A stretch of DNA of 35,955 nt from an uncultured Verrucomicrobia subdivision 3 bacterium (GTDB taxonomy: Bacteria > Verrucomicrobiota > Verrucomicrobiia > Limisphaerales > UBA11358). A model generated the notes under the pieces. It was not told the DNA's origin and ran no database searches. It saw nothing but the letters and a program-made list of their open reading frames with translations. The DNA is taken from NCBI GenBank assembly GCA_903870815.1, contig CAIQEI010000011.1:1-35955 (forward strand). Direction: 5' to 3'. Below, one piece after another: positions 9,322 to 33,419 of the stretch. Position numbers and translations under genes: made by a program. How positions within the stretch are numbered: position 1 is the first letter of the stretch; the number at the start of each line of letters is the position of its first letter.

Positions 9322-10005
9322 ATGTCCACTCTCGTCTGTTTCGCCCTGAAAGAAGAAGCCGCGCCGTTTCACAAAATCGCGGCCGGGCGGCCGGGCGTTT
9401 TCACCGTCATCACCGGCATTGGCCGCCAGAATGCGGAGAAATCCGTGCGCAACATGCTGGCGGCCTGTTCGCCAGAGCTGGTGCTGACCTGCGGTTTCGC
9501 CGGCGGCTTGAATCCTGACTTGAAAATCGGCGACGTGGTTTTTGAAGTCCCTTCCCGTAGCCGCCGAGGTAACGAGGCTCAAACTGAAAACGGCAATCAG
9601 TCAGAGCCTCCTCACGTCGGCTCCTACGATAAATTGCTCGCCGCCGGGGCTAAGAACGTAAGATTTTTTTGCGCTGAACGCATCGCCACCACCGTCGCCG
9701 AGAAGAAACAACTATGCGAGCAGACCGGCGCGGACGCGGTGGAGATGGAATCGGCGGCAATTCACGCCGTCTGCGCGGATAAAAACATCCCCTGCGTAAC
9801 CGTGCGGGTGATCTCCGACACGGCGGGCGAGGATTTGCCGCTGGATTTCAACGCGCTGGCCAAGTCGGACCGGAGCATTGATTTCGGCAAGCTGGCGTGG
9901 GCCATCGCAAAGTCGCCGGGGAAAATCGGGGCGCTGATGGCGTTGCAGAAGAAAACCAGTTTTGCGGCGGAGCGGCTGGCGGCGGTGTTATCCAAAATCC
10001 TGTAG
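9322..10005 (+). CDS. Nucleoside phosphorylase/nucleosidase family (MTAN- or HpnG-like) with in-frame insert
   Basis: PNP/UDP-phosphorylase fold protein of 227 residues. Core features: CFALKEEAAPF and TGIGRQNA near the N-terminus, GFAGGLN, the ribose-binding VEMESAA and the catalytic-Asp segment VRVISDTA. This fits 5'-methylthioadenosine/S-adenosylhomocysteine nucleosidases and the related hopanoid-locus HpnG enzyme, which releases adenine from adenosylhopane. Facing hpnK and hpnD downstream supports an HpnG-like role but does not prove it. Residues 79-103 (bases 9556-9628) are a palindromic element in open frame, in the loop after strand GDVVFE and before YDKLLAAGA; removing it gives about 202 residues. 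The TAG stop (10003-10005) is inside the left arm of another copy of the same element. Confidence 0.85.
   Translation: MSTLVCFALKEEAAPFHKIAAGRPGVFTVITGIGRQNAEKSVRNMLAACSPELVLTCGFAGGLNPDLKIGDVVFEVPSRSRRGNEAQTENGNQSEPPHVGSYDKLLAAGAKNVRFFCAERIATTVAEKKQLCEQTGADAVEMESAAIHAVCADKNIPCVTVRVISDTAGEDLPLDFNALAKSDRSIDFGKLAWAIAKSPGKIGALMALQKKTSFAAERLAAVLSKIL
9556..9628. repeat. GTAGCC palindromic element inserted in frame in a coding gene
   Basis: Left arm CGTAGCCGCCGAGGTAACGA (9556-9575, continuing GGCTC to 9580) pairs with the reverse complement of 9604-9628 at 18 or so of 25 positions. The inner GAGGCTC (9574-9580) and GAGCCTC (9604-9610) match perfectly, and ACTGA (9583-9587)/TCAGT (9597-9601) extend the stem. 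The 73 bases encode about 25 residues without a stop because GTAG falls out of frame here. It shares its arm sequence with the element at 10002-10138. Confidence 0.85.
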
Positions 10006-10138
10006 CCGCAGAGGTGACGAGGCTCCGGCCACATTTACGATATTGGATTTACGATTTACGAGTCCGCCCCGAATGCGCCAACGGCGCGTAAATCGCATAT
10101 CGTAAATTGGAAATAAGGAGCCTCCAGTCGGTGGCTAC
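10002..10138. repeat. 137-bp nested palindromic element between convergent genes, supplying both stops
   Basis: Outer arms: GTAGCCGCAGAGGTGACGAG (10002-10021, continuing GCTCC) and GGAGCCTCCAGTCGGTGGCT (10117-10136, continuing AC). GAGGCTCC/GGAGCCTC match perfectly. Inside lie two inverted heptamer arrays: ATTTACG, ATATTGG, ATTTACG, ATTTACG (10033-10060) and CGTAAAT, CGCATAT, CGTAAAT, TGGAAAT (10087-10114), with a 26-base centre. The left GTAG gives the TAG stop of the nucleosidase gene (10003-10005); the right CTAC gives, on the minus strand, the TAG stop of the transporter gene (10135-10137). The RNA could fold into one long hairpin and may act as a bidirectional terminator or 3' stabiliser, although no U-run follows. 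Confidence 0.88.
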
Positions 10139-10593
10139 GGATTATTAGCTGGCGGTGAATTTTGACTCGCGATTGGCGGCGCGACCTTTTCCTTATTATG
10201 TTCGCCATAGCTGATGAGCATCGCACCCAGGACGATGAGCGTCACGCCGCCCCAGCGCGCCGCGTCCACGCGCTCGTGCAGGATGAATTGCGCGGCGAGC
10301 GTGGTCATCACAAAGCTGACCGCCGTCAGCGGCCACACAAAACTCACGTCGCGCTGGCCGAGCAGGTATTGAAGCAGGACGAAGAAAATCGTTTCAAGGA
10401 GGAGGCCGAGCAAGACGCTTTTGTTCGTGAACCACTGGCCGACAAGCTTCAGGACGTTTTTCCAAGTCGCGAGGCCTTCCGATTTGCGCGCCGTGTAGGC
10501 CGCGCCGATGACGTTGATGCCCTGCTTGAGCGTGATGACGCCGAACGCCTCGAAGGCGAAGGCGATGAGAAGAACAATCAATATTTTGGTCAT
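10135..10593 (-). CDS. Small four-helix DMT/EamA-like membrane transporter
   Basis: Begins MTKILIVLLIAFAFEAFGVI at ATG 10593. The frame stays open to 10638, but those extra codons lie within a palindromic repeat and are unlikely to be translated. It is about 152 residues with four membrane helices (about 3-22, 50-72, 80-102, 108-128) and the HERVDAARWGGVTLIVLGAMLIS ending typical of EamA/SMR-type proteins. Half-size DMT proteins such as ArnE/ArnF move lipid-linked sugars. Its place at the end of an operon after hpnD and hpnK suggests it may move an isoprenoid-linked or lipid substrate; that is inference. The TAG stop comes from the right end of the palindromic element. Confidence 0.8.
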   Translation of the reverse strand: MTKILIVLLIAFAFEAFGVITLKQGINVIGAAYTARKSEGLATWKNVLKLVGQWFTNKSVLLGLLLETIFFVLLQYLLGQRDVSFVWPLTAVSFVMTTLAAQFILHERVDAARWGGVTLIVLGAMLISYGEHNKEKVAPPIASQNSPPANNP

Positions 10594-10602
10594 AAAATTA
10601 TG

Positions 10603-10655
10603 GCGACGGTCCAGGACCGTCGCGAATTTGCCCGGCACTCACAGTGCGCCGCTAC
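10603..10655. repeat. Two-hairpin intergenic element at the hpnK stop codon
   Basis: GCGACGGTCC (10603-10612) and GGACCGTCGC (10614-10623) form a perfect 10-bp stem around one base. GGCACT (10634-10639)/AGTGCGCC (10643-10650) forms a second, smaller hairpin. On the minus strand the element begins GTAGCGGCGCACTG, and its GTAG provides the TAG stop of hpnK (10652-10654). It fills nearly all the 58-base gap before the transporter gene. Confidence 0.75.
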
Positions 10656-32081: not shown

Positions 32082-33419
32082 TCACCGGCGCAAAAGTAGG
32101 CGCAGCAGGAGCCGGTCAACCATACCGACGCGGGGACGCGGATTTTTCAAGGCCGCAGCGACTGCCTCGCTCAACCCGGCGGCAAATCGTTCCGGCCCCC
32201 ATGCGGAAATGATCCGGCGGCTGGCGGCGCCAAAATCGGCGAGGGGAAAATTGCCGGCAGAAGTTTTCAGCAGCAGCTGGGAGAGTTCATCCACGTTGCC
32301 TGGATCAAATTGAAAGCCGTTCACACCCGGCAAAACTAAATCCGCGGCGCAGCCGCTGCGGTTGGATACCAAAACCGGCAGGCCGGAAGCCATCGCTTCG
32401 TTCACAACCAGCCCCCACTGTTCCGTGGTGCTCGCGTGAACAAAAGCGCCCGCCAAGGCGTAATACGCCGGCAAATCGGCATATTGCTTGAAGCCCGGCA
32501 GATAGACGCAGTTTCCGAGGCCGAGCTCCGCAATCAACTTTTGCAACCCCGGTTTGAACGGTCCATCCCCAAGCAGAACCAGGTTCCAAATGTCCGATTT
32601 CCGCCGCCTCTCCTCACCGTCTGGAAAGAGGGCTGGGGCGGGGCATTCGTTAGCTTCTATTTTTTGCTTTCTGCTTTCTGGTTTTACTTCCGCTAGTTCG
32701 CGATACCGCGCAAACGCCTCAATGAGCCGGAATAGATTTTTTTTCTCCACAAAACGCGCGCTCGCCAGAAAATATTTTTCCGGCAAAGCCTGAAGATTTC
32801 GGATTTCAGATTGCGGATTGCGGATGAAATCGGTCTGGCCCGAAAAATAGGCGTTGTCCACGACATCATAGCCGAGGAAGACGCGAGCGCGGGCGAGGCC
32901 AAGCTGGACGAGGTAATCGGCATGTGGACCGCCGCCGGCCAGCCCGGCAGAATTCAGTTTCACCAGCCGACTTTTTATCGATTCCTTCCACAGAACGCGC
33001 GGTTCGTCCCACGCGGTGCTTTCGGACATGACCACCGAGGGCGTATGCGTTTCCGCGCACCACAAGAGGGCGCTCAAGGCATCGGCGGAGGCCCAGCCGG
33101 GAACCACGACGGCCTGCGGCTTGATTTTGTCAAGGGTTCGCCACATTTTGCGGCGCAGTTCCTGTTTCCATTGCCGGTCGCCGGAATCGCGGTGAGTCAG
33201 CGTGACGCGCGTGAAGGCGGCCGCGCCTTCCACTTTTTCCCAGGCGTAGGTGCCTTCGGAGGCGCAGGCTTCCACGCCCCAAACCGACATCAGTCGTCCG
33301 GCCGCATTCAGGCGCGCATGATGATACGGGCCGAAACGATGGAACAAGACGGCGACCCGGGTGGCGGCCGGCAATGCATTTCCACTGCCGCTGGCCGATG
33401 AGATTGAAGAATGATCCAC
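32082..33419 (-). CDS. GT4 glycosyltransferase with three repeat insertions
   Basis: 445 residues, GT-B fold; acceptor half with LFHRFGPYHHARLNA, donor half with TTEQWGLVVNEAMASGLPV (EX7E). Three repeat-derived segments are in frame: NPQSEIRNLQ (bases 32795-32822), SRKQKIEA (32652-32686) and PAPALFPDGEERRR (32607-32643). The last two form a ~31-residue insertion just before the strand WNLVLLGDGPF, making the protein longer than usual for the family. Catalytic motifs are intact. The C-terminus LLLRLLLRR is basic and may sit on the membrane. Confidence 0.92.
   Translation of the reverse strand: MDHSSISSASGSGNALPAATRVAVLFHRFGPYHHARLNAAGRLMSVWGVEACASEGTYAWEKVEGAAAFTRVTLTHRDSGDRQWKQELRRKMWRTLDKIKPQAVVVPGWASADALSALLWCAETHTPSVVMSESTAWDEPRVLWKESIKSRLVKLNSAGLAGGGPHADYLVQLGLARARVFLGYDVVDNAYFSGQTDFIRNPQSEIRNLQALPEKYFLASARFVEKKNLFRLIEAFARYRELAEVKPESRKQKIEANECPAPALFPDGEERRRKSDIWNLVLLGDGPFKPGLQKLIAELGLGNCVYLPGFKQYADLPAYYALAGAFVHASTTEQWGLVVNEAMASGLPVLVSNRSGCAADLVLPGVNGFQFDPGNVDELSQLLLKTSAGNFPLADFGAASRRIISAWGPERFAAGLSEAVAAALKNPRPRVGMVDRLLLRLLLRR
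32607..32643. repeat. CCTCTCC/AGAGG imperfect palindrome in GT4 gene
   Basis: CCTCT (32607-32611) and AGAGG (32627-32631) pair weakly, followed by GCTGGGGCGGGG. It lies in frame next to a heptanucleotide tract. Supported mainly by its position in a family-atypical insertion. Confidence 0.45.
32652..32686. repeat. Heptanucleotide repeat in GT4 gene (GCTTTCT type)
   Basis: Units AGCTTCT, ATTTTTT, GCTTTCT, GCTTTCT, GGTTTTA; translated as a Lys-rich segment on the minus strand. Confidence 0.7.
32795..32822. repeat. Heptanucleotide repeat in GT4 gene (GATTKCG type)
   Basis: Units GATTTCG, GATTTCA, GATTGCG, GATTGCG. On the coding strand this is CGCAATC repeated, the same heptamer as in the ABC ATPase N-terminus at 2292, and gives the same peptide type (NPQSEIR versus NPQSAIR). 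Confidence 0.9.

Follow-up and report, generated by a model that had tools for sequence, protein, structure and literature searches.

The convergent 3′ ends of two genes in a Limisphaerales (Verrucomicrobia) MAG are separated by a GTAG-tagged REP dimer (BIME-like), which has an array of heptamers as its core and supplies the stop codons of both genes with its two tips. We think, with a probability of about 0.8, that the dimer is a selfish repeat which is tolerated at the gene junction because its tips are stops, and which belongs to a family likely mobilised by RAYTs.

Anatomy of the element and its neighbours

The window, i.e. the whole stretch of DNA that was analysed (35,955 nucleotides), belongs to a genome which its nearest named orthologs place with Limisphaerales / Verrucomicrobia subdivision 3 MAGs. 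The features relevant to the junction are the following.

9322..10005, + strand: phosphorylase/nucleosidase gene (PNP_UDP_1, HpnG-like), 227 aa; its stop is the element's TAG at 10003-10005
9557..9627, no strand assigned: second REP dimer, inserted within the nucleosidase gene without breaking its frame, with the sequence RSRRGNEAQTENGNQSEPPHVGSY; its GTAG is out of stop phase
10002..10026, + strand: left REP arm with GTAG tip; TAG 10003-10005 is the nucleosidase stop; 3 mismatches relative to the family arm
10033..10114, no strand assigned: core, an inverted heptamer array (ATTTACG / CGTAAAT) of a separately dispersed hairpin family
10113..10138, − strand: right REP arm (inverted) with GTAG tip, whose TAG (10137-10135) ends the EamA-like gene
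10135..10638, − strand: small transporter gene, EamA/ArnE-like (weak), 167 aa; its stop is the element's TAG at 10137-10135

The element is a nested palindrome of 137 bp (10002-10138, GTAGCCGCAGAGGTGACGAGGCTCC...GGAGCCTCCAGTCGGTGGCTAC) with the tetranucleotide GTAG at both outer ends, and it makes up the 129 nt gap between the nucleosidase and transporter genes. The first-pass annotation had described a nested palindrome whose tip TAGs are the stops of both convergent genes, and the coordinates and open reading frames agree with this description. Its account of the tip sequences was correct for the GTAG ends and wrong for the right tip, which reads GTAGCCAC and not GTAGCCGC.

The palindrome is not due to chance: its predicted fold had z-scores of -6.0 (+ strand) and -4.7 (− strand), and no shuffled sequence folded equally well in either single-strand orientation. 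ATTTACG/CGTAAAT was matched nine times in the window (2.0 matches expected), six of the nine matches falling within the element. The usual arm of the family is GTAG-GAGCC-GAGGTGACGA-GGCTC, of which both tips of the element are degenerate copies. GTAG REPs typically have a stem-loop of about 5-13 bp directly behind the tag. The stem at this place comprises 5 bp (GAGCC/GGCTC) in the family consensus, and the arms of the element pair internally over 4-5 bp, as judged by eye; strong pairing is formed between the two arms rather than inside each arm.

An intrinsic terminator (a GC stem with a T run behind it) was not called in 10002-10138, which has no T-tract, and the single weak call was located outside the element, at 10167. 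Identity with an intrinsic (rho-independent) terminator is therefore not supported. Rfam gave no match above gathering score; the sole hit, at the palindrome 9550-9635, was far below its own threshold, and assignment to an Rfam RNA family is likewise not supported.

The closest models of the PNP_UDP_1 phosphorylase are the hopanoid-associated HpnG and MTA/SAH nucleosidase, both with scores below their cut-offs. The EamA/ArnE-like product, a weak match, is a membrane protein, and an HpnK-type gene is located beyond it.

The REP dimer at 9557-9627 adds 20-odd residues to a loop of the nucleosidase. This loop (residues about 76-103) carries differing in-frame inserts across the relatives: REP-like in L092, L093, L113 and L115, of the 'PLAPSPFPSDGERMSTRTGEGL' type in L098, L100 and L109, and of the 'DRRGEFHEPQTEK' type in L096, L097, L102 and L104. 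It is a hot spot of repeat insertion. Elsewhere in the window a heptamer-type array of AATCCGC units occurs at 2288-2326 and at 32795-32830, in opposite orientations.

Arms and heptamer arrays are dispersed families

When the element was compared by BLAST with the genome that contains it, the core (bases 32-113) was found on its own in many places, and the arm (bases 1-24) in other, separate copies. The latter have the sequence GTAGGAGCCGAGGTGACGAGGCTC and are arranged as inverted pairs, the two members being divided by a short spacer rich in A/T. The GTAG arm family is dispersed at high copy number: 48 arms with at most 3 mismatches were found in the genome of the window (1 with the reversed-pattern control), and 9-125 in each of eight related genomes (control 0).

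The core array (variants of ATTTACG and CGTAAAT) also occurs alone, often immediately behind stop codons. The heptamer hairpin was found inside 10-11 of 118 REP dimers from several genomes and at differing loci, which indicates that the composite of REP and heptamers recurs, and the link between the palindromic and heptamer families proposed in the first-pass annotation was borne out. A few other dimers among the 118 (L215, L243, L216, L282) have cores made of other heptamer arrays, of the AGAATGA, CAACTCT and GGACGCT types. REP dimer cores seem to attract or to generate 7-nt arrays of varied sequence.

RAYT genes flanked by matching arms

Models of REP-associated tyrosine transposases (RAYTs) matched in all of the 14 genomes tested. 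RAYT genes with matching REP flanks were present both in the genome of the window and in relatives: members of a divergent RAYT subgroup are flanked by GTAGGAGAC arms on contig C145 (16038-16439) of the own genome and on C76 of G005, and the RAYT on C22 of G001 is flanked by GTAGCAGCC-type arms. Other GTAG REP types were found beside RAYTs of their own (G046:C125, G030:C284 and G001:C24). The REP-flanked RAYT of the own genome belongs to the GTAGGAGAC subtype, and G001 alone yielded a RAYT of the GTAGNNGCC type. Inspection by eye showed that the HxH motif is kept in the C145 protein, along with a Tyr in the region where one is expected. Directly beside the IS200-type transposase genes of C30, C58 and C67, no REP of the family was found. 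Judging from these gene neighbourhoods, RAYT single-strand transposases most likely mobilise the REP family. The own genome also contains a decayed classical RAYT (G000:C53:18430-18744; L145, L357), which scores above the NF047646 cut-off and has an internal stop.

Filled and empty sites at the nucleosidase/transporter junction

The nucleosidase was present in 87 of the 97 genomes searched. Thirty nucleosidase loci were fetched, and 20 of them, including the window, retain the convergent transporter. In nine of these 20 syntenic genomes the gene ends overlap by 8-14 nt (gap -14 in six, -11 in one and -8 in two; L094, L095, L106, L108, L110, L112, L116, L117 and L120). Since the overlapping loci include the most divergent members, overlap of the two convergent genes is probably the ancestral state.

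In G021, G022 and G024 the same composite occupies the orthologous site; the nucleosidase stops at the tip TAG, and the transporter at a TAA just outside the composite. In G046 an unrelated REP dimer, of a GTAGGGC-type family with about 153 arms in that genome, is located at the same junction and supplies both TAGs. The filled and empty sites compared come from genomes whose best nucleosidase orthologs are about 71-79% identical, and they place the insertion point only approximately.

At element-free loci the nucleosidase stops in the same alignment column (KII-TGA, for example) or continues for 1-5 further residues, so trimming of this protein is small or nil.

Other inverted repeats, of the ACGCAGAGACGCAGAGG or CACGCAAAGACGC types, were seen in L097, L324, L331 and L334 at the two junctions studied, i.e. 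this one and the kdsD/rlmI-like junction described below. Both junctions are occupied by several unrelated repeats.

A second junction with two TAG stops

On contig C25 of the own genome (position 45532) a 55-bp GTAG dimer is located between kdsD and an rlmI-like gene (names assigned from the sequences by eye), and the stops of both genes are TAG. KdsD ends at the same position in all 30 relatives read, with TAA, TGA or TAG as stop codon, which indicates that KdsD lost nothing. The kdsD junction of G018 is empty, and there the two genes share a TTAA overlap. A different GTAG dimer in G012 again provides both TAGs at this junction, and G001 has a single REP there. A further double-TAG dimer was found in G031 (L307). 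The signs that the repeat is mobile are differences in occupancy between species, at this junction and at that of the nucleosidase.

The first-pass annotation had suggested that an element with stops at both ends could settle harmlessly at gene ends and trim C-termini. The first suggestion is supported by the overlapping genes of element-free relatives, by the G046 dimer that supplies both stops, and by the other dimers found elsewhere. The second is not supported: several element-free nucleosidase orthologs end at the same residue with a stop of their own, an outcome that the first-pass annotation had itself named as counter-evidence, and the ortholog ends of the nucleosidase and KdsD led us to reject C-terminal trimming as a general role.

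How often the arms supply a stop

Genes around the arms were called by a simple hexamer score. In a set of 250 arms the stops of the entering genes peaked at the TAG position (13 genes; 7 at the next best position); 52 genes have a stop of their own within the last 60 nt ahead of the arm, 30 continue through it in frame and six terminate inside it. The TAG was used in 9 of 31 convergent contexts versus 4 of 51 unidirectional ones (p = 0.026). In a wider set 23 of 312 arms supplied a stop, compared to 50 of 2149 other GTAGs (p = 1.5e-5), and with the comparison confined to sites outside genes the counts were 23 of 216 and 50 of 741 (p = 0.08); all these arm sets include orthologous copies and loci fetched for the two gene pairs, so the counts are not independent and the p-values are no more than indicative. 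The enrichment of in-phase TAGs that the first-pass annotation had anticipated is thus only partly supported, being weak outside genes. Provision of the TAG is a genuine effect at single loci, but most copies do not provide it: 289 of the 312 arms supply no stop.

Possible explanations

In the reading that we favour, the REP dimer would have landed at a junction where the 3′ ends of the convergent genes overlapped by about 8-14 nt, and the insertion would have pushed the two genes apart. Entered from either end, GTAGGAGCC... has one stopping phase and two open ones, the outward GTAG halting the former at once. Both genes enter 10002-10138 in the stopping phase and would in this way have acquired a replacement stop at the old end or a few codons from it. 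The copy at 9557-9627 may be tolerated inside the nucleosidase gene because the two other phases are open. Where convergent genes are tightly packed, an insertion would in most cases extend one protein or both by a long nonsense tail, and those insertions that stop translation immediately would survive; such survival could explain the pile-up at the TAG without any special function. The double stop would then be no purpose-built device but a filter that decides where a selfish repeat is tolerated. We infer that this particular copy was mobilised by a RAYT, that the events occurred in the order given, and that the insertion was neutral.

It is very improbable that an intergenic palindrome came to coincide with two TAG stops by chance. 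Single coincidences are expected, as 103 of 751 called genes stop with TAG and 55 of these end in GTAG, but double-TAG cases recur with different repeats (the window, C25:45532, G012, G031 and G046), and the stops form a sharp peak at one position (13 of 250 arms against 7 at the next). The stops could also derive from the target, if the RAYT inserted at an existing GTAG and the gene's own G-TAG end were the stop. IS200/IS605 enzymes insert beside a short target motif, KdsD ends at the same position with and without the element, and the final kdsD codon is often ATG or GTG, which makes a G-TAG possible. We doubt this origin: element-free relatives use TAA, TGA and TAG alike, the nucleosidase stop shifts by up to five residues among relatives, and both tips of a dimer carry a stop, of which only one could be the target.

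It is also unlikely, in our opinion, that the element is a selected bidirectional gene-end device, whose hairpin would terminate or stabilise both transcripts and block read-through into the opposite gene. The strong fold on both strands, the convergent position, the presence at the orthologous site in four species and the fact that different repeats have occupied the junction repeatedly would suit such a device, and REPs have been proposed, in the passages of PMC3733652 on these repeats, to stabilise mRNA ends or to terminate transcripts. Against it speak the lack of a T-tract and of a terminator call in the element, and the nine relatives whose genes overlap without it. Some role of the element at RNA 3′ ends or in termination is possible.

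The favoured reading, a selfish dimer tolerated for its stops, can be extended, tentatively, to the proposal that double-GTAG palindromes land preferentially at overlapping convergent ends because their tips would replace both stops at once, and so repeatedly uncouple gene pairs, and that the REP dimer with heptamer core is a distinct Limisphaerales composite moving as a whole. The junction offers a traceable before-and-after picture of how a small selfish repeat can enter a site with no free space, thanks to the stop codons in its tips. Different REP families filled this junction independently, so that the idea can be tested in the many MAGs of the group. Composites of this kind, REP dimers built around a heptamer array, deserve to be catalogued.

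Comparison with known repeat systems

A search of the open-access literature returned nothing relevant on REP insertion at overlapping convergent genes or on verrucomicrobial heptamer repeats, which does not imply that such reports are absent. Provision of TAG by the tips of GTAG REPs is already published in kind: in the passages of Di Nocera et al. 2013 (PMC3733652) on these repeats, GTAG REP termini 'often provide' the TAG stop to flanking ORFs, and the REPs pair, prefer convergent and unidirectional gene ends, and occur in frame in genes. The paper distinguishes 24 families, and the hosts include Verrucomicrobia (Opitutus terrae). Our element resembles the GTAG REPs/BIMEs described there in its GTAG tip, inverted pairs 20-100 bp apart, location at convergent ends, TAG supply and in-gene copies. 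It differs in its inverted heptamer core, the word 'heptamer' being absent from the text of that paper. What the present analysis adds is the empty site with overlapping genes, which the passages of that paper on these REPs do not contain.

As in RAYT / REPtron systems (Nunvar et al. 2010, PMC2817692), Y1 transposase genes are flanked by matching GTAG REPs; unlike in those systems, the copy at 10002-10138 is not beside a RAYT, the REP-flanked RAYTs being located at other places of the genome and in related genomes. Rickettsia palindromic elements (RPEs) also are palindromic repeats found in frame inside genes, as is the copy at 9557-9627. R. conorii RPEs are CGTC-tagged (PMC3733652, in the passage concerned), whereas the present repeats carry GTAG, and membership in the RPEs was rejected because of the tag.

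In P. putida and P. fluorescens, according to the relevant passage of PMC3733652, degenerate GTAG-1 units are linked with stem-loops of unrelated sequence; these too are dispersed composites of a REP end and an unrelated hairpin, but here the hairpin is a heptamer array placed between two REPs. The cyanobacterial STRR and the Beggiatoaceae TAACTGA repeats (PMC4679880) are, by description, similar in consisting of 7-nt units in intergenic DNA; unlike them, the heptamers of the present family form inverted hairpins, inside REP dimers or apart from them.
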